Below, piece by piece: positions 5,055-41,886 of a DNA stretch of 42,181 nt. The notes under the pieces are model-generated. The model worked only from the letters and a program-made list of their open reading frames with translations. It ran no database searches and had not been told where the DNA came from. Location of the stretch: assembly GCA_016218445.1 (NCBI GenBank), contig JACREC010000115.1, positions 1 through 42,181 on the forward strand, in the 5' to 3' direction. Positions within the stretch are counted from its first letter, which is position 1; each line of letters begins with the position of its first letter. Made by a program: the position numbers and the translations under genes. The stretch comes from Nitrosomonadales bacterium (GTDB lineage: Bacteria > Pseudomonadota > Gammaproteobacteria > Burkholderiales > Gallionellaceae).

Positions 5055-5061
5055 ATACTTC

Positions 5062-5144
5062 GTCATTCCCGCGCAGGCGGTAATCCAGTGGGTCTACCAA
5101 AAAGCATTTTTGAATTGCTGGATTCCCGCCTGCGCGGGAATGAC
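5062..5144. repeat. Palindromic repeat (GTCATTCCCGCGCAGGCGG...CCGCCTGCGCGGGAATGAC), intergenic copy
   Basis: Arms gtcattcccgcgcaggcggtaatccag / ctggattcccgcctgcgcgggaatgac; between convergent genes, so it may also act as a terminator. Confidence 0.9.
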
Positions 5145-5146
5145 GG

Positions 5147-11802: not shown

Positions 11803-11944
11803 GGGCGCCTCTAAAAATTCGGAGTTCGCCCAAATGCAAGGCGCGAGGAAATTTTCGCAGCGCCGCATATGCATGATATGTAAGCAAGAAAATTTCTTGA
11901 GCAACGCAGCAGTTGGGATGAAATCTGGATTTTTAGAGGTGCCC
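11803..11944. repeat. MITE-like repeat A, uninterrupted copy, terminal inverted repeat GGGCRCCTCTAAAAAT
   Basis: gggcgcctctaaaaat ... atttttagaggtgccc (1 mismatch in 16); core caaggcgcgagg...gatatgtaagcaagaaaatttcttgagcaacgcag shared with 37494-37694. Confidence 0.85.
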
Positions 11945-12033: not shown

Positions 12034-14352
12034 ATGATTCCCTCCCTTCTTTCCGGCCTTAACCCGGAACAACGCGCCGCCGTCACCCTGCCCGAACAAT
12101 CGGCGCTGATCCTCGCCGGGGCGGGCAGCGGCAAGACGCGCGTGCTGACCACGCGCATCGCCTGGCTAATCAGCTCCGGACAGGCCAGCCCGCAAAACAT
12201 TCTGGCGGTGACGTTCACCAACAAGGCGGCGAAAGAAATGCTCACGCGCTTGTCTGCGATGCTGCCTCCTTCGACAATGCTCAGGACAGGGATCAACACG
12301 CGCGGCATGTGGATCGGCACCTTTCACGGGCTGTGCAACCGCATGCTGCGCGCGCATCACCGCGAGGCGAATTTGCCGCAGACTTTCCAGATACTGGACA
12401 GCGCCGACCAGCTTTCTGCCATCAAGCGCCTGATGAAGGCGATGAATGTGGATGACGAAAAGTATCCTCCGCGAGAAGTGCAATTCTTCATCAGCGGCAA
12501 CAAGGAAGAAGGGTTGCGCGCATCCGAGGTGGAGGCCTTCGACCCGTACACGCGGCGCAAGGTGGAAATCTTTGCCGAATACGACGCACAGTGCCAGCGC
12601 GAAGGTGTGGTGGATTTTGCCGAGCTGCTGCTGCGCTGCTACGAGCTGTTGTCGCGCAACCAGCAGCTGCGCGAGCATTACCAGGCGCGCTTCAAGCACA
12701 TTCTGGTGGATGAATTCCAGGATACCAACAAGCTGCAATACCAGTGGCTGAAGCTGCTGGCGGGTGTCGCTGAAAATCGCAAGCGCCTCCCTCTCCCCAA
12801 CCCTCTCCCGGGGGGAGAGGGGGCAACCGTATCGCTACGCGATGATTTTTCAACTTCCGCGCTGTTCGCGGTGGGGGACGACGACCAGTCCATCTACGCG
12901 TTTCGCGGCGCGAACGTCGGCAACATGCAGGAGCTGCTGCGCGACTTCCATGTGCAGAATGTCATCAAGCTGGAGCAAAACTACCGCTCGCACGGCAACA
13001 TCCTCAATGCCGCCAATGCCTTGATCCAGCACAACCGCAGCCGCCTCGGCAAGAATCTGTGGACGGCAGAACACCAGGGTGAAGCGCTGCGCGTGTACGA
13101 AGCGCCGACCGATACAGAAGAAGCCAGGTTCATCGTCGAGGAGGTCAGGCAGCTCAACCGCGAAGGCGTGCGGCTTTCCGGGATGGCCGTGCTGTACCGC
13201 TCCAACGCGCAATCGCGGGTGCTGGAGCACGCGCTGGTGTCCGCCGGGGTGTCATACCGCGTGTATGGCGGCCTGCGCTTTTTCGAGCGGCAGGAAATCA
13301 AGCACGCGCTGGCCTATCTGCGCCTGATGCAAAACACCGATGACGACAACGCGCTGCTGCGCATCATCAATTTCCCGACGCGCGGCATCGGCGCGCGCAG
13401 CATCGAACAGTTGCAGGAAAGCGCAAAAATAAATAGCACTACGCTGTGGGACGCGGCTGCGCGTGCTGGGGGTAAGGTTGCGGCATTTGTCGGGCTGGTC
13501 GAATCGATGCGCAGTACTTGCCGCGAACTTCCGCTGCACCCGCAAGGGGTAGGCCGGGGGGTGCCCGGAGCCTCCGGCTCCACCCTTCCGCTCCCCGAGA
13601 TCATGGATCATGTGTTGCAGCACAGCGGGCTGATTGCGCATTACCAGAATGAAACCGGCGCCAAGCAGCGCGAGGCGCAGGAGCGGCTGGAAAACCTCAA
13701 CGAACTGATCAACGCGGCGACGCTGTTCGTGCATGAGAACGAGGACGACAGCCTCACGGCCTTTCTCACCCATGCCGCGCTGGAGGCGGGCGAGCATCAG
13801 GCCGGGGACAGCGACGATGCGCTGCACCTGATGACGGTGCACGCGGCAAAGGGCTTGGAGTTCGATGCCGTGTTCATCACCGGGCTGGAGGAAGGATTGT
13901 TCCCGCACCAGAACAGCAAGATGACTGACGGCGGGCTGGATGAGGAGCGCCGCCTGATGTATGTCGCCATCACGCGCGCGCGGCGCAGGCTGTACCTCAC
14001 CTTCGCGCAGAGCCGCATGTTGCACGGGCAGGTGGACTACAGCCTGGTGTCCAGCTTCCTGCGCGAACTGCCGGATGAGTTGCTGCACTGGATCACCCCG
14101 CGTATCGCGGCGCGCAATCCGTTTACCGCATCGTTTGCGCCGCAGCGCGATGCGCCGGTGGCCGCGCCCGTGCCGCGCCCTGCCAGCAGTTCCGGCTGGC
14201 ACGCCGGGCAGCGCGTATTCCACCAGAAATTCGGCGAGGGCGTGGTGCTGGACATCAAGGGAGGCGGGGCCGATGGCCAGGTGCAGGTCAATTTCAAGCG
14301 CGCCGGAACCAAGTGGCTGGCGCTGGAGTATGCCAAGCTTGAGCCGCTCTAA
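12034..14352 (+). CDS. uvrD: UvrD/PcrA-type superfamily I DNA helicase with three repeat-derived in-frame insertions
   Basis: LNPEQRAAVTLPEQSALILAGAGSGKTRVLTTRIAWLI...FAVGDDDQSIYAFRGA...LMTVHAAKGLEF...C-terminal GQRVFHQKFGEGVVLDI. Confidence 0.95.
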   Translation: MIPSLLSGLNPEQRAAVTLPEQSALILAGAGSGKTRVLTTRIAWLISSGQASPQNILAVTFTNKAAKEMLTRLSAMLPPSTMLRTGINTRGMWIGTFHGLCNRMLRAHHREANLPQTFQILDSADQLSAIKRLMKAMNVDDEKYPPREVQFFISGNKEEGLRASEVEAFDPYTRRKVEIFAEYDAQCQREGVVDFAELLLRCYELLSRNQQLREHYQARFKHILVDEFQDTNKLQYQWLKLLAGVAENRKRLPLPNPLPGGEGATVSLRDDFSTSALFAVGDDDQSIYAFRGANVGNMQELLRDFHVQNVIKLEQNYRSHGNILNAANALIQHNRSRLGKNLWTAEHQGEALRVYEAPTDTEEARFIVEEVRQLNREGVRLSGMAVLYRSNAQSRVLEHALVSAGVSYRVYGGLRFFERQEIKHALAYLRLMQNTDDDNALLRIINFPTRGIGARSIEQLQESAKINSTTLWDAAARAGGKVAAFVGLVESMRSTCRELPLHPQGVGRGVPGASGSTLPLPEIMDHVLQHSGLIAHYQNETGAKQREAQERLENLNELINAATLFVHENEDDSLTAFLTHAALEAGEHQAGDSDDALHLMTVHAAKGLEFDAVFITGLEEGLFPHQNSKMTDGGLDEERRLMYVAITRARRRLYLTFAQSRMLHGQVDYSLVSSFLRELPDELLHWITPRIAARNPFTASFAPQRDAPVAAPVPRPASSSGWHAGQRVFHQKFGEGVVLDIKGGGADGQVQVNFKRAGTKWLALEYAKLEPL

Positions 14353-14373: not shown

Positions 14374-14610
14374 GAAACCACGGAAGACACGGAAAAAAGC
14401 GAGGCTTATCGAAGAGTTGGTGGGTGATGTGCGCTCACCCATTGGGTGCATGCCGCTTCTTGTCGAATTCATTGTTTTTATTCCGTGTTATCCGTGTTAT
14501 CCGTGTTATCCGTGTTATCCGTGTTATCCGTGTTATCCGTGTTATCCGTGTTATCCGTGTTATCCGTGTTATCCGTGTTATCCGTGTTATCCGTGTCTTC
14601 CGTGGTTAAC
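14374..14610. repeat. 9-bp tandem array (TCCGTGTTA x12, 14482-14589) bracketed by an inverted repeat
   Basis: aaccacggaagacacggaa near 14375 and tccgtgtcttccgtggtt at 14590-14607 are reverse complements flanking the array. Confidence 0.93.
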
Positions 14611-20801: not shown

Positions 20802-20809
20802 CTGAGCAC

Positions 20810-20943
20810 CTCTCAAAACTTAAATTTCGTTTCCCTACTGTGTTGCGCTCAAAAAATCTTGCTTACATATCTGTTCCATACGCTGCGCTGCGATTTTTTT
20901 CGCGCGCCTTGTATGGCTTGGAAATTTAAATTTTTAGAGGCAC
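20810..20943. repeat. MITE-like repeat A, diverged copy in opposite orientation
   Basis: gagcacctctcaaaacttaaattt ... aaatttaaatttttagaggcactc; reverse complement contains caaggcgcgcgaaa...gatatgtaagcaagattttttgagcgcaacacag. Confidence 0.75.
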
Positions 20944-22313: not shown

Positions 22314-22373
22314 TAACCAGCGACTTGGCTGGCGTTGTTTGCCAGCCTAGTCGAATGGCTAGTAGTTTTATCA
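22314..22373 (+). repeat. 60-bp CA-flanked hairpin element, copy 1
   Basis: taaccagcgacttggctggcgttgtttgccagcctagtcgaatggctagtagttttatca; preceded by CA, ends in CA. Confidence 0.9.
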
Positions 22374-23197: not shown

Positions 23198-25972
23198 ATG
23201 AAGACACTGCTGCTGGTTGACGGCTCATCTTACCTGTACCGCGCTTTCCATGCACTGCCCGATTTGCGCAGCCCTCAGAATGAGCCGACCGGTGCGATCT
23301 ACGGCGTGCTCAACATGCTGCGCAAGCTGCGCGCCGATTTCCCGGCGGATTATAGCGCTTGCGTGTTTGACGCAAAAGGCAAAACTTTCCGCGAGGACTG
23401 GTATCCGGAATACAAGGCGCATCGCCCGCCCATGCCGGAAGACCTCGTCGCGCAGATCGCGCCGCTGCACGAGGCCATCGCCGCCTTCGGCTGGAACATC
23501 CTGATGGTGGACGGTGTGGAGGCCGACGACGTGATCGGCACGCTGGCGCAGCAAGCCGCCGCTGAAGGCGCGCGTTGCATCATCTCCACCGGCGACAAGG
23601 ACCTCACGCAACTGGTGAATGAACATGTGCTGTGGGTGAATACCATGAGCGAGGAAAAGCTGGGCGAGGCAGGCGTGCTCGCCAAGTTTGGCGTGCCGCC
23701 GGAACGCATCGTGGATTACCTGACGCTGGTCGGCGATACGGTGGACAACGTGCCGGGCGTGACCAAGGTTGGCCCCAAGACCGCCGTGAAATGGCTCAAC
23801 CAATACGGCACGTTGGACAACCTGCTGGCGCACGCTGACGAAGTCGGCGGCGTGGTCGGCGAGAATTTACGCGCTGCCGTGGATTGGTTGCCGCAAGGCC
23901 GCAGGCTGGTCACCGTGAAATGCGATGTCCCGCTGCCCAAACGTTACGATGAATTGACTGCACCGCCACAGGACACGGAACAACTGCGCGCGCTGCTGCA
24001 GCGGTTCGGGTTTAAATCTTGGTTGCGCGAGTTGGATAGCGGAAAGAATTCCAACTCCGCTCCCTCCCCCTTGCAGGGGGAGGACTGGGGCGGGGGTAAA
24101 GCACGCACAGATTCTACCCCCTCCCTAACCCTCCCCCTGCAAATGGGAGGGGATGGTAGGCCGGTTTTTTCCTCTGGACATTACGAAACCATTCTCACCG
24201 AAGCACAACTCGACGGCTGGCTGGGGAAAATCCTGCAGGCCGATCTGGTGTGTGTGGACACCGAGACCACGGGCCTCGACGTGATGAATGCACAACTGGT
24301 CGGTATTTCTTTTTCCATAGAGCCGCACCACGCCGCCTACCTGCCACTGGCGCACCACTATCCCGGCGCGCCGGATCATCTGAAGCGCGAGCACGCGCTG
24401 CAAAAACTCAAGCCCTGGCTGGAAAGCGCGCAGCACAAAAAGCTCGGGCAGAACCTCAAATACGACCAGCACATCTTTGCCAACCACGGCATCACGCTTG
24501 CGGGTATTCATGAGGATACGCTGCTGCAATCCTACGTGCTGGAAAGCCACAGGCCGCACGACATGGATAACCTTGCGCTGCGCCATCTCGGCGTGAAAAC
24601 CATCAGCTATACCGAGGTGGTAGGCAAGGGCGCCAAACAGATTTGTTTCGATCAGGTGGATCTCGATACCGCCACGCGCTATGCGGCGGAAGACGCCGAC
24701 ATCACGCTGCAACTGCACCAAGCCTTGTTGCCGCAATTGCGCGACAAACTCGCCGAGGTCTATCGCAACATCGAGATGCCGGTGCGGCAGGTACTGTACG
24801 TCATGGAGCGCAACGGCGTGCTGATAGACGGCGCCAAGCTGGCGGCGCAGAGCCGTGAACTGGGCGAAAGAATACTCGCCATCGAGGCGCAGGCATTCGA
24901 GGCAGCGGGACAGCCATTCAACCTCAATTCGCCCAAGCAGATACAGGAAATTCTGTTCGACAAGCTGCAACTGCCGGTGAAGAAAAAAACGCCCAGCGGC
25001 ACGCCCTCCACCGACGAGGAGGTGTTGCAGGAACTGGCGCTGGATTACCCGCTGCCGAAAATCCTGCTCGAACATCGCGGCATGGCAAAGCTCAAATCCA
25101 CCTACACCGACAAGCTGCCGCAAATGGTGGACCGCAAAACCGGGCGCGCGCACACCAGCTACTCACAGGCGGTGGCAGTGACGGGCAGGCTAGCCTCCAG
25201 CGACCCCAACCTGCAGAACATTCCGATACGCACTCCGGAAGGCCGCCGCATCCGCGAAGCCTTCATCGCACCCGCAGGCAGCCGCATCGTGTCGGCGGAC
25301 TATTCGCAGATCGAACTGCGCATCATGGCGCACCTCTCCGGCGACGAAGGACTGCTGCGCGCGTTCGCCAACAACGAGGACATCCACCGCGCCACTGCCG
25401 CCGAAGTGTTCGGCGTTGCGCCCGATGAGGTGAGTTCAGAGCAGCGCCGCTACGCCAAGGTCATCAACTTCGGCCTGATCTACGGCATGTCCGCTTTCGG
25501 CCTGGCAAGCCAGCTCAACATCGAACGCAGCGCCGCGCAGCAATACATAGACCTCTACTTCGCGCGCTACCCCGGCGTAAAGAACTACATGGACAGCACG
25601 CGCGAACAGGCCAGGCGGCAAGGCTACGTTGAGACCGTGTTTGGCCGCAGGTTATGGCTGCCTGAGATCAACGCCAGCAACGGTGCAAAACGCCAAGGCG
25701 CCGAGCGCGCCGCCATCAACGCGCCGATGCAGGGTACAGCGGCAGACCTGATCAAGCTGGCAATGATTGCCGTGCAGAACTGGATAGAAAAAGAAAAGCT
25801 GCACACCCGCCTCGTCATGCAGGTGCATGACGAACTCGTGCTCGAAGTGCCGCAGGCGGAACTGCATCACGTGAAGGAAAAACTGCGCGATCTCATGTGC
25901 CATGTCGCCGAACTGAAAGTGCCGCTGGAAGTAGGGCTGGGAGAAGGCAGCAACTGGGACGAGGCGCATTAG
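23198..25972 (+). CDS. polA: DNA polymerase I
   Basis: MKTLLLVDGSSYLYRAFHALPDLRSPQNEPTGAIYGVLNML...DYSQIELRIMAHLSGDEGLL...MQVHDELVLEVP; TAG stop. Confidence 0.97.
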   Translation: MKTLLLVDGSSYLYRAFHALPDLRSPQNEPTGAIYGVLNMLRKLRADFPADYSACVFDAKGKTFREDWYPEYKAHRPPMPEDLVAQIAPLHEAIAAFGWNILMVDGVEADDVIGTLAQQAAAEGARCIISTGDKDLTQLVNEHVLWVNTMSEEKLGEAGVLAKFGVPPERIVDYLTLVGDTVDNVPGVTKVGPKTAVKWLNQYGTLDNLLAHADEVGGVVGENLRAAVDWLPQGRRLVTVKCDVPLPKRYDELTAPPQDTEQLRALLQRFGFKSWLRELDSGKNSNSAPSPLQGEDWGGGKARTDSTPSLTLPLQMGGDGRPVFSSGHYETILTEAQLDGWLGKILQADLVCVDTETTGLDVMNAQLVGISFSIEPHHAAYLPLAHHYPGAPDHLKREHALQKLKPWLESAQHKKLGQNLKYDQHIFANHGITLAGIHEDTLLQSYVLESHRPHDMDNLALRHLGVKTISYTEVVGKGAKQICFDQVDLDTATRYAAEDADITLQLHQALLPQLRDKLAEVYRNIEMPVRQVLYVMERNGVLIDGAKLAAQSRELGERILAIEAQAFEAAGQPFNLNSPKQIQEILFDKLQLPVKKKTPSGTPSTDEEVLQELALDYPLPKILLEHRGMAKLKSTYTDKLPQMVDRKTGRAHTSYSQAVAVTGRLASSDPNLQNIPIRTPEGRRIREAFIAPAGSRIVSADYSQIELRIMAHLSGDEGLLRAFANNEDIHRATAAEVFGVAPDEVSSEQRRYAKVINFGLIYGMSAFGLASQLNIERSAAQQYIDLYFARYPGVKNYMDSTREQARRQGYVETVFGRRLWLPEINASNGAKRQGAERAAINAPMQGTAADLIKLAMIAVQNWIEKEKLHTRLVMQVHDELVLEVPQAELHHVKEKLRDLMCHVAELKVPLEVGLGEGSNWDEAH
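24055..24160. repeat. Repeat-derived in-frame insertion in polA, exonuclease linker region
   Basis: ccctcccccttgcagggggaggactggggcggggg...taccccctccctaaccctccccctgcaaatgggagggg; encodes APSPLQGEDWGGGKARTDSTPSLTLPLQMGGDG; same family as 2005-2101. Confidence 0.85.
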
Positions 25973-26066
25973 TTTTTTGAATACCGTGACATCTTTACTT
26001 TTCCATGCAGCAAATAGCCCATATAAACGTATGGCTTATTAGCCAGCAAAAGCGTATTATTCCCAC

Positions 26067-26607: not shown

Positions 26608-26625
26608 TATGGGGTAGCAAGCCTC

Positions 26626-26894
26626 CAAACGCACCACCATCAACGCGCCCATGCAAGGCACGGCCGGATCTGATCAAACTGACAATGATCGCCGTGCAGA
26701 ACTGGCTGGAGCGCGAACACATGCACACCAGCCTCATCATGCAAGTGCACGATGAACTTGTGCTCGAAGTACCGCAGGAGGAACTGCCTCACGTGAAAGA
26801 AAAATTGCGCGATCTCATGTGCCATGTCGCCGAACTGAAAGTGCCGCTGGAGGTGGGGCTGGGGGAAGGCGGGAACTGGGATGATGCGCATTAA
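26626..26894 (+). pseudogene. Second, truncated copy of the polA 3' end
   Basis: MIAVQNWLEREHMHTSLIMQVHDELVLEVPQEELPHVKEKLRDLMCHVAELKVPLEVGLGEGGNWDDAH is identical at 59/69 residues to the intact polA tail; about 2 nt missing near 26664 relative to polA. Confidence 0.95.
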
Positions 26895-26900
26895 TGTTTT

Positions 26901-35787: not shown

Positions 35788-36587
35788 GCACTGTGGCGGA
35801 ACAAACACGGGATTCCGGCGCCGTCGTTGACATCCGCGGCCTGAATACCCGCTTTGGCAGAAACGTGGTGCATGACAACGTCAGCCTGAGTGTGCAGCCG
35901 GGGGAAATTTTCGCGCTGGTGGGCAGCAGCGGCTGCGGCAAGTCCACGCTGCTGCGCACCATCATCATGCTGCTGCAGCCGGTAGCGGGCTCGATCCGGG
36001 TGTTCGGCCAGGAAGTGCTCGGGCTGCGCGACGAGGAAGCGCTGCCGCTGCGCCGCCGCTGGGGGGTCATGTTCGAACGTGGCGCACTGTTCAGTTCTCT
36101 TACGGTGGCGGAGAATGTCGGCATGGTGCTGCGCGAACATACGCAGCTCAGCGCACGATTGATTGCCGAGGTCGCCGCCATGAAAATCGCGCTCACCGGG
36201 CTGCCCGCAGATGCGGGCGCCAAGTACCCGAGCGAGCTGAGCGGCGGGATGCGCAAGCGCGCTGCACTGGCACGCGCCATCGCACTCGATCCTGAATTGC
36301 TGTTTCTCGACGAACCGACCGCGGGGCTTGACCCGCTGAGTGCGAGCGGCATTGACGAACTGGTGCGGAGCTTGCGCAATGCGCTCGGATTGACCATCAT
36401 GATGGTGACGCACGACCTCGACCTGCTGTGGCGGGCGGCAGACCGCGTCGCAGTGCTGGGCGAGGGGCACATTCTGGGGATAGGCACCATGGAGGAACTC
36501 TCCCGCTTGGATCATCCGATCATCAGGGAATATTTTTACGGGCCGCGCGGCCGCGCCGCGCGGGAACAGGCATGGAAGAAAAAGTAA
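35784..36587 (+). CDS. MlaF-type ABC transporter ATP-binding protein
   Basis: GSSGCGKSTLLRTI Walker A, LSGGMRKRAALARAIALDPELLFLDEPTAGLDP. Confidence 0.94.
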   Translation: MSTVAEQTRDSGAVVDIRGLNTRFGRNVVHDNVSLSVQPGEIFALVGSSGCGKSTLLRTIIMLLQPVAGSIRVFGQEVLGLRDEEALPLRRRWGVMFERGALFSSLTVAENVGMVLREHTQLSARLIAEVAAMKIALTGLPADAGAKYPSELSGGMRKRAALARAIALDPELLFLDEPTAGLDPLSASGIDELVRSLRNALGLTIMMVTHDLDLLWRAADRVAVLGEGHILGIGTMEELSRLDHPIIREYFYGPRGRAAREQAWKKK

Positions 36588-37474
36588 ATTTTGCCGTGGT
36601 TGGTGTTTTCGTGCTGGTGTTAAGCATTGCACTCATCAGCGGCGTGCTGTGGCTGAGCAGTGGGGAATCCTATCGCAAGGTTTACGATGTCTACCATACC
36701 TACATGAAGGAATCGGTAGCAGGACTGAGCCTCAATGCGTCGGTACGGTACCGTGGTGTCGAAGTTGGCCGCGTGCAAAAAATTGCGCTGGCGCCGGGCA
36801 ATGTCGAGCAGGTGCAATTGACGCTCGACATCGAGCGCGGCACCCCGGTCAAAACAGATACGGTGGCCATACTCCAGACCTATGGAATAACCGGCCTCGC
36901 CTTTGTCGAGTTGACGGGAGGCGGCCGCGATTCGCCTGTACTGAAGGCGCAGCCCGGCGAAAAATACCCGGTGATCAAAGCCGGGACTTCCCTGATGACG
37001 CGGCTCGATTCCGCAATTACGATTTTGCTTGCCAATCTCACCCGGACCAGCGATAACCTCAATGCCCTGATGGATGAAGATAACCGGCGCGCGTTCAAGA
37101 ACACCCTTGCGGATATCAAGGTCCTGTCGCACACCCTTGCGGCGCGCTCGGCCGCGATTGACTCCAGCTTGGCCATGGCGGCACGCACCATGGAAAACAC
37201 CGCGCGCCTGACCGGTGAACTGCCGCAACTTTCCCAGCGCATACAACGCAGCGCGGACGCCTTCGACCGCATGGCAAACGAGCTTGCCCGCACCGGAGCA
37301 AGCGCCAGCAGCGCGCTCGATGACACCCGCGAGACGCTGCCGGAAGTGCAGCAACTGGTCATGGAATTGCGTGACCTGACAGCCTCGTTGCGGCGCTTCA
37401 GCGGCGAACTGGAACAGAATCCGAGCGCGCTGGTGTATGGCAAGGCCGCAGCGAAGCGCGGCCCCGGCGAATGA
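36572..37474 (+). CDS. MlaD/MCE family protein
   Basis: MEEKVNFAVVGVFVLVLSIALISGVLWLS...VAGLSLNASVRYRGVEVGRVQKIAL...VAILQTYGITGLAFVELTGG. Confidence 0.93.
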   Translation: MEEKVNFAVVGVFVLVLSIALISGVLWLSSGESYRKVYDVYHTYMKESVAGLSLNASVRYRGVEVGRVQKIALAPGNVEQVQLTLDIERGTPVKTDTVAILQTYGITGLAFVELTGGGRDSPVLKAQPGEKYPVIKAGTSLMTRLDSAITILLANLTRTSDNLNALMDEDNRRAFKNTLADIKVLSHTLAARSAAIDSSLAMAARTMENTARLTGELPQLSQRIQRSADAFDRMANELARTGASASSALDDTRETLPEVQQLVMELRDLTASLRRFSGELEQNPSALVYGKAAAKRGPGE

Positions 37475-37493
37475 TTCCATGGATTGGCCTATG

Positions 37494-37694
37494 GGGATCT
37501 CTAAAAATTCAGAGTTCGCCCAAATGCAAGGCGCGGACAAAATTTCGCCGCGCCGCATATGTATTGATATGTTAGCAAGAAATTTTTTACGCAACGCAGC
37601 ATAACCAGCCACTTGGTTGCCGTTTTTTGGCAACTTAGTGGAATGGCGAGTAGTTCCACCAGTTGGGATGAAATGTGAATTTTTAGAGGTTCCC
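37494..37694. repeat. MITE-like repeat A, copy interrupted by the 60-bp element
   Basis: gggatctctaaaaattc ... gaatttttagaggttccc; core as in 11803-11944 with a 60-bp insertion. Confidence 0.92.
37602..37661 (+). repeat. 60-bp CA-flanked hairpin element, copy 2 (nested in repeat A)
   Basis: taaccagccacttggttgccgttttttggcaacttagtggaatggcgagtagttccacca. Confidence 0.95.
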
Positions 37695-37696
37695 AT

Positions 37697-38371
37697 ATGA
37701 CAATGATGAAACAATTTCTGGCGATAACCTCCCGCACAATGAACAAAAACAGGCAGCAGCGCATACCCTGCCGGACGCTGTGTATCTTGGCGTCCTCCAT
37801 GCTGCTGGCCGGCTGCACCGCCCTGCCGGCCCCGAAACCGGAGAGTCCCCACATCTACCTGCTCGATGCGCAACCGGCCGCCAAAGCAGCGCAGGTAAAA
37901 CGCGACCTGGTGCTGGCAGTCGCCATGCCGCGCGCGCGGCCTGGCTTTGACACGCCGCAGATGGCTTACCTGCGGCAGCCCCATGAACTGGAATACTTTG
38001 CGGCCAACCGCTGGGCAGATGCTCCGCCGCACATGCTGTGGCCGCTGCTGGTACAGGCATTGGAGCAAACGGGAGGATTCCGCGCCATCGTGCAGACGCC
38101 GGGCGCGATTCCCGCCGATGTCCGGCTCGATGTTGAACTGATACGCCTGCAGCAGGACTTTGGGACAAGGCCGAGCCGGGTACAACTCACGTTGCGGGCA
38201 CAGCTGAGCGATGTGCGCAGCAAACGGGTGCTCGCCGTAAAGCTGTTCGACGAGATGCAAAATGCCGCCAGTGACGACGCATATGGCGGAGTCACCGCAG
38301 CGAACCAGATAGTACAACGTGTGTTGAACCATCTGACCGATTTTTGCCTCGACGAGTCAGTCAGCCAATAG
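37697..38371 (+). CDS. ABC-type transport auxiliary lipoprotein
   Basis: Lipobox LLAGC; YLLDAQPAAKAAQVKRDLVLAVAMPRARPGFDTPQMAYLRQPHELEYFAANRWADAPPHML. Confidence 0.88.
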   Translation: MTMMKQFLAITSRTMNKNRQQRIPCRTLCILASSMLLAGCTALPAPKPESPHIYLLDAQPAAKAAQVKRDLVLAVAMPRARPGFDTPQMAYLRQPHELEYFAANRWADAPPHMLWPLLVQALEQTGGFRAIVQTPGAIPADVRLDVELIRLQQDFGTRPSRVQLTLRAQLSDVRSKRVLAVKLFDEMQNAASDDAYGGVTAANQIVQRVLNHLTDFCLDESVSQ

Positions 38372-39955: not shown

Positions 39956-39956
39956 C

Positions 39957-40167
39957 AGGGTGTTTAAAAACTACTGATGGAACAACTAGCCATCTGACTA
40001 GGCTGCCAAAAGACAACAGCCAAGTCATTGGTTATGCGCTCGGCATAACTGCGTTGCTCAAGGGTTCAAAATGCGGGGTCGCGTAGCGATAAACTCCATG
40101 TAAATTCCGCTTTTTCACCCTTTCGCGCCTTGTTCTGCCATCGCTCGCTACGTTTTTCAACACCCTG
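39957..40167. repeat. MITE-like repeat B (terminal CAGGGTGTTKAAAAAC inverted repeat), interrupted by the 60-bp element
   Basis: cagggtgtttaaaaac ... gtttttcaacaccctg; core contains gcgttgctcaa and cgcgccttg shared with repeat A. Confidence 0.85.
39975..40034 (-). repeat. 60-bp CA-flanked hairpin element, copy 3 (nested in repeat B)
   Basis: Reverse complement taaccaatgacttggctgttgtcttttggcagcctagtcagatggctagttgttccatca. Confidence 0.92.
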
Positions 40168-40184
40168 CTAATGCCTTAACTTAA

Positions 40185-41718: not shown

Positions 41719-41886
41719 TCGTCATTCCGGCGCATAGCCAGCGACTTTGCTGGCGTTTTTTGCCAGCTTAGTCGAGTGGCTAGTAGTTTCATCAGGCCGG
41801 AATCCAGCAAATTAAACAACGCCCGCGAAGCGGGACAACAGATCGGTCTTGTCCGCTGCGCGAAATTATTGACGGACTGGATTCCG
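41719..41886. repeat. GTCATTCCGGCGCAGGCCGGAATCCAG-type palindromic repeat, interrupted by the 60-bp element and truncated at its right arm
   Basis: cgtcattccggcgca / ggccggaatccagc ... ctggattccggcc, then an unrelated repeat. Confidence 0.85.
41735..41794 (+). repeat. 60-bp CA-flanked hairpin element, copy 4 (nested in a palindromic repeat)
   Basis: tagccagcgactttgctggcgttttttgccagcttagtcgagtggctagtagtttcatca. Confidence 0.95.

Follow-up and report, generated by a model that had tools for sequence, protein, structure and literature searches.

Two copies of repeat A, a MITE whose terminal inverted repeats are long and imperfect, differ by an internal 60 bp within one stretch of 42,181 nucleotides (the window), and it may be asked whether these 60 bp are a mobile element in their own right or belong to repeat A. 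The first-pass annotation had described the pair as a filled and an empty site, and both sequences quoted for it were found as stated. The copy at 11803-11944 reads gcaacgcagCA^gttgggatg without the 60-mer (a caret marks an insertion point here and below), whereas the copy at 37494-37694 reads gcaacgcagCA, followed by TAACCAGCC...TTCCACCA and then by gttgggatg. The difference was exactly 60 bp (37602-37661), with a 1-bp ambiguity in the form of an A at either end, and the two repeat A bodies were 88-89% identical on either side of it.

The locus and the element copies of the window

Besides the copy at 37602-37661, three further copies of the element were found in the window. The features are as follows.

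36428-37474, + strand: MCE/MlaD-family gene, upstream of the insertion (PF02470, E 5e-15)
37489-37492: CTAT, left copy of a probable 4-bp target duplication of repeat A (right copy ATAT, 37695-37698; a single CTAT at the empty locus of the relative G002)
37494-37601, + strand: left part of repeat A
37602-37661, + strand: 60-bp element, alpha tail class, type 1 core (TAACCAGCCACTTGGTTGCC-GTTTTTT-GGCAACTTAGTGGAATGGCGAGTAGTTCCACCA)
37605-37646, + strand: imperfect hairpin of the element (helices of 3 bp, 5 bp and 8 bp), followed by a 15-nt tail
37662-37694, + strand: right part of repeat A
37697-38371, + strand: ABC-type transport auxiliary lipoprotein gene, downstream of the insertion (PF03886, E 2e-17)
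11803-11944, + strand: empty copy of repeat A, without the 60-mer
20806-20941, - strand: third copy of repeat A in the window, diverged (72% identity)
22314-22373, + strand: second element copy (alpha, type 1), target CTCA^AGGT
41735-41794, + strand: third element copy (also alpha and type 1), hosted by the loop of a hairpin repeat, GTCATTCCGGCGCA^GGCCGGAATCC
39975-40034, - strand: fourth element copy (alpha, type 2 core CCAATGACT..AGTCAGATGG), in the second MITE-like repeat
39956-40177, no strand assigned: second MITE-like repeat (terminal inverted repeats CAGGGTGTTTAAAAA / TTTTTCAACACCCTG), host of the type 2 copy

The element was approximately 48-61 bp long and consisted of one oriented imperfect hairpin and a short 3' tail. 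At 37605-37646, the hairpin also had a conserved internal loop (G/AA) and one T.T mismatch. The consensus of 33 copies (alignment A2) was TAACCAGCSACTTNG..loop..YTAGTSGAATGGCTAGTAGTTTCATCA. In the hairpin, 94.6% of the cells were paired, the covariation score was 0.358 compared to 0.167 for shuffled sequences, and both sides had changed at 9 of the 16 pairs. The element thus folds into a single imperfect hairpin, which compensatory changes have maintained.

In the own genome, approximately 30 matches were found by DNA search, in which approximately 20 copies besides that at 37602-37661 had E = 3e-21 to 1e-10, and a covariance model gave 105 matches in the 1.92-Mb assembly. Among 100 related genomes, matches were present in 51 of the 60 from Gallionellaceae, compared to 1 of the 40 from other families of the order. 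Public records with the element were Gallionella, Sideroxydans and Ferrigenium assemblies and a few labelled Thiobacillus, Sulfuricella or Sulfuricaulis (L135, L152, L187 and L196); these last may reflect either horizontal spread or mis-binned contigs. The plasmid and phage searches gave no element match. One alpha element (L480) was seen on a 6.9-kb contig classed as viral (IMGVR_UViG_3300037222_000062). Rfam 15 contained no curated family matching 37400-37800, where microRNA matches occurred at chance level only, and our literature search found no account of these repeats for Gallionella or Sideroxydans. Furthermore, no longer autonomous parent bearing both element ends was found in approximately 2.7 Mb of sequence (overlaps included). 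Among small hairpin repeats in the broad sense, the element forms a new family whose ends, empty sites and target rules are unusually clear, and much of the repetitive clutter of Gallionellaceae genomes is explained by it.

The genes at the locus were those for MlaE, an ABC ATPase, MlaD/MCE and the auxiliary lipoprotein. The composite of repeat A and 60-mer had been said to part the MCE gene from the lipoprotein gene in a compact operon, and this agrees with the gap of 222 bp here compared to approximately 20 bp at the orthologous locus of G002, a relative of the same genus. The start codon of the lipoprotein gene lies just beyond the edge of the composite, and the AGAGG upstream of it is supplied by the terminus of repeat A. 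The corresponding junction in G002 had neither repeat A nor the 60-mer, and a single CTAT instead of the CTAT...ATAT seen here. The comparison with relatives proposed in the first-pass annotation therefore yielded an empty locus, but one that was empty of the whole composite and not of the 60-mer alone. To judge from this junction, the composite was either gained after the split from G002 or cleanly lost in G002. Since G002 was without the whole composite, the 60-mer at this locus may equally have entered after repeat A had landed or have come as part of a ready-made composite. Near-identical filled composites were found elsewhere (C68 of the own genome and C329 of G002), and some composites have thus probably moved as units. 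The second MITE-like repeat (39956-40177) was likewise missing as a whole unit at the orthologous loci of G002 and G003.

Several other repeats were observed in the window. The hairpin repeat GTCATTCCCGCGCAGGCGGGAATCC occurred in several copies (2774-2812 and 5059-5145), which are empty versions of the hairpin kind hosting the element at 41735-41794. A perfect 9-bp tandem array, (TCCGTGTTA)n, was located at 14482-14604, 3' of a long ORF (12034-14352). A probable partial gene duplication was seen as a direct repeat of approximately 280 bp (25694-25978 and 26618-26900, 79-86% identical), of which one copy sits at the end of another long ORF (23198-25972) and the other lies 0.9 kb downstream.

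Filled and empty copies of repeat A

As suggested in the first-pass annotation, the repeat A copies of the own and related genomes were aligned. Ten of the 36 copies were filled and 26 were empty, all at exactly the same point. A tree was made from the repeat A bodies with the 60-mer removed; it is unrooted and leaves gain and loss unpolarised. It required at least 9 filling changes, and a single clade of filled copies was rejected (p-AU 0.005). Since the filled copies were scattered among the empty ones, the alignment and tree indicate that one repeat A site was filled, or precisely emptied, repeatedly. Among the repeat A paralogues with common outer flanks, one in the own genome was empty (L054) and two in relatives were filled (L385 and L387). 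Moreover, the filled copies held different variants of the 60-mer, including one of 54 bp, and variants resembling these were found in other hosts.

Repeat A was one of several hosts, each of which was hit at one point. The others included the second MITE-like repeat (39956-40177), the GTCATTCCGG hairpins, the CCCTCTCCCGC..GCGGGA^GAGGG hairpins and the CCACA^GAGATCACAGAG repeats. The element was also found nested in other copies of itself, where GGCTA^GTAGT had received 7 type 2 copies and YTA^GTSRA had received 5 of type 1. The view of the 60-mer as an insertion into repeat A is thus upheld by its identical ends in unrelated sites, by the 26 empty copies and by the filled copies not forming one clade.

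These data bear on two simpler accounts. If repeat A had ancestrally held the 60-mer, 11803-11944 and the other empty copies would be deletion derivatives, which the first-pass annotation had named as the finding that would overturn its own view. The unrooted tree leaves room for this, and the precise loss of a single copy is possible; however, the 60-mer recurs with unchanged ends in many unrelated repeats and sites, the empty copies are seamless and come from several genera, and the filled ones hold different variants, so that this account is strongly disfavoured. Another account makes repeat A the only mobile unit and the 60-mer a passive cargo of the MITE and of other repeats. It would fit the absence of the whole composite from G002 and the near-identical composites at C68 and C329. 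Nevertheless, the 60-mer kept constant ends in several other families of host repeats and in nested and apparently non-repeated sites, and the filled copies were scattered on the repeat A tree. Passive carriage is therefore contradicted as a general account and quite improbable as such, but it is possible for single loci, including 37494-37694.

Two further accounts concern the hairpin itself. It may be kept mainly as a useful structured RNA or DNA site (an mRNA stabiliser, an attenuator or a protein site) and not as a selfish element, as the compensatory changes in the stem and the position of the 37602-37661 copy between two genes of one operon would allow. However, the stem would also be preserved if a transposing enzyme reads the fold, the sites were not conserved between close relatives, and neither a promoter nor an intrinsic terminator stood out in the insert region (0 promoter-like matches; 1 terminator-like match, compared to 0.6 expected by chance). 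We regard this account as improbable, though less so than passive carriage. As a single imperfect hairpin of 50-60 nt that has unpaired bases and whose terminal stem varies, the element resembles folded attC sites, and it could then be a recombination site of an integron-type tyrosine recombinase. Nevertheless, alignment A2 had no RYYYAAC/GTTRRRY core boxes at the ends, and single hairpins were inserted without cassettes or a gene array, which leaves this reading very improbable.

Ends, targets and tail classes

The ends of the alpha class were constant across unrelated sites and read A^TAACC...ATCA^R. Target statistics were obtained from a cleaned set of 157 distinct sites, in which position -1 was A in 145, position +1 was a purine (G/A) in 155, and position -2 was A in only 5. 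The alpha target lies behind GGBA^ and before R. The first-pass annotation had placed the insertion at CA, either with a 2-bp duplication or without one. The left flank was not CA in 122 of 200 copies, and 112 of those 122 elements still ended in CA. Therefore the version with a CA duplication fell and that without duplication stood; as judged from these flanks, the right-end CA belongs to the element, and at most one A is ambiguous.

When element and target were compared base by base within the alpha class, the only strong signals lay between type 1 and type 2 cores at target position +2, and they probably reflect few independent events. Stems of at least 6 bp spanned 37 of 226 empty sites, compared to 56 of 652 nearby controls, and insertion was mostly in the 3' arm or the loop.

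A scan for unpaired halves exposed a second class, beta, with the same hairpin and the tail ...TATGCAAAGC. In total, 48 beta copies were collected, and a reversed-pattern control gave zero in all 24 genomes searched. Beta elements end in ...AAAGC^ and their targets lie behind CGY^ and before Y, often in hairpin loops. The two target rules were distinctly different: A at -1 was present in 186 of 200 alpha copies and 10 of 46 beta copies (p 9e-23), and a purine at +1 in 187 of 200 and 1 of 46, respectively (p 3e-36). In both classes, the last base or bases of the element resembled the target base or bases behind which it had landed. The sequence 5' of the hairpin foot was identical in alpha and beta (TAA), and a 5' guide cannot therefore account for the class switch.

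Six beta copies were found in the terminal loop of alpha hairpins. Approximately ten lay within GTAG-type REP hairpins like those flanking the RAYT genes of the family (L140, L252/L449, L301, L431, L435, L437, L438, L441, L447, L451 and L323), with 8 in the GTAG orientation and at least 3 reversed. Head-to-tail beta tandems with a period of approximately 55 bp were seen at L460 (G016:C4:1-400) and at L465-L469 (G040), and another element often started right after a TATGCAAAGC end.

It is hard to show whether single REP-like hairpins move as discrete units, and with which ends, since unoccupied sites are seldom met with. In the present case both filled and empty sites were abundant, the ends were exact to the base, two tail classes followed two target rules, and nesting recorded the order of insertion. 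The mobility of a 60-bp hairpin is thus directly testable, and the natural tail swap is a ready experiment on target choice.

Mode of movement and candidate enzymes

The comparisons above established fixed ends, insertion as a unit without target duplication, repeated gain or loss in repeat A, nesting and two tail classes. On this basis we propose, with a probability of roughly 0.6, that Gallionellaceae genomes carry the 60-mer as a miniature non-autonomous mobile element with fixed ends, defined short targets and no target duplication, which would be moved as a folded single strand by an IS200/IS605- or RAYT-like enzyme acting in trans. In this proposal the element would fold and move as a single strand, the enzyme supplied in trans would carry out the cutting and rejoining, and one recognition would select both the cut at the right end of the element and the cut in the target. 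Targets in hairpins or loops would fit the cleavage of single-stranded or cruciform DNA. The elements tended to oppose the replication fork in three complete genomes (47:23, p 0.006), but this suggestive bias did not recur in a larger sample in which a skew proxy was used (47:41).

The missing duplication, the fixed 5' target, the likeness of right end and target, the hairpin recognition and the hairpin targets are the traces to be expected from single-strand transposition as in IS200/IS605 and RAYT systems (PMC6006769, PMC8266576). In IS200/IS605 elements, a target tetranucleotide next to the left end and the last tetranucleotide of the right end are recognised in similar ways (PMC6006769). 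With these and with PATEs, their palindrome-only derivatives, the 60-mer shares insertion 3' of a short fixed sequence without target duplication, hairpin recognition and related right-end and target bases (PMC6006769, PMC7290912). However, it has one hairpin instead of one per end, contains neither tnpA nor tnpB, and does not differ between its two target classes at the guide position 5' of the hairpin; no matching autonomous element was found. It resembles REP/REPIN sequences with their RAYTs in being a high-copy, short, imperfect hairpin that has internal mismatches, is oriented and non-autonomous, and has cut sites beside the hairpin (PMC3116915, PMC8266576, PMC6006769). It differs from them as a precise unit of 48-61 bp with demonstrable empty sites and class-specific targets that does not flank RAYT genes as their own REP; GTAG-type REPs are instead insertion hosts of the beta class. 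Moreover, the 60-mer carries no GTAG (or CGTC) tag 5' of the hairpin, where the top strand reads TAA and the bottom strand CTAG (alpha) or ATAG (beta); the alpha TAGTAG lies 3' of the hairpin in alignment A2. Because of the single hairpin, the unchanged 5' guide position, the missing GTAG tag and the position away from that of a RAYT gene's REP, we did not file the 60-mer as an IS200/IS605 or RAYT element, although it behaves like one.

With MITEs, as represented by repeat A and the second MITE of the window, the element shares the non-autonomous, multi-copy and strongly folded character; unlike repeat A, which has both, it lacks terminal inverted repeats at its very ends and a target duplication. 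The small dispersed repeats of cyanobacteria, reportedly described by Elhai et al. in 2008, are likewise very small, may be mobile and have no obvious transposase. By description, these are alike in size class, possible mobility and lack of an obvious transposase, but they occur in other hosts and are shorter, at approximately 20 bp (PMC2884548) compared to 48-61 bp.

We also considered, as a doubtful extension, that the family represents a new class of mobile DNA with a single hairpin, for which an as yet undescribed transposase would be responsible. An interchangeable 3' tail, and not a 5' guide or the host enzyme alone, would then set the target; a tail swap would change it from GGBA^R to CGY^Y, and insertion into loops would yield nested stacks of hairpins.

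Candidate enzymes were searched with the profiles PF01797 (Y1_Tnp), PF01548 (IS110), PF04986 (IS91-type) and NF047646 (RAYT). In the own genome, which is 85% complete, Y1_Tnp was without a match and the RAYT matches were all weak. Y1 HUH transposases were present in most carriers and absent from several; as a marker of the mobiliser, PF01797 did not track the element, and this profile misses many RAYTs. IS110/IS1111 DEDD transposases were absent from most carriers (G000, G001, G004, G007, G034, G043, G049, G053, G055 and G056), and so were IS91/Helitron-like Y2 transposases. Among the candidate enzymes checked, only RAYTs were common in carriers.

We speculated that the RAYT (TnpA-REP) proteins of these genomes may move the 60-mer in trans, although the hairpin is not their own REP. 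Full RAYTs (NF047646) were present in most genomes of the family, and genomes with a RAYT hit above approximately 130 bits had a median of 26 elements compared to 9.5 (p 0.0015, genus g9 left out). RAYTs cut beside folded REP hairpins at CT, or at CT and CA (PMC8266576), and on the bottom strand the alpha insertions were mostly at C^T. However, the correlation over all genomes, g9 included, was not significant (p 0.16) and is confounded by ancestry, and g9 itself was rich in RAYTs with almost no elements. The RAYT genes read here were flanked by other, GTAG-tagged hairpins, whereas GTAG is missing 5' of the 60-mer hairpin on both strands, and the carriers G056 (a complete genome), G028, G039 and G045 had no RAYT. 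A role of these RAYTs is thus possible, with the odds against it.

The elements were also considered as the own REPs of Y1 or RAYT genes, and this was rejected: they were present at 1 of 30 Y1 loci, and only beta-type matches lay near NF047646 RAYTs. The latter were confined to G043, G013 and G023, and at least one of them (L438 in G013) was inside a RAYT-type REP. In G043, a complete genome with 33 element matches, a RAYT gene was found to be split over two frames (G043:C1:191332-191768); it was missed by PF01797 and found by NF047646.
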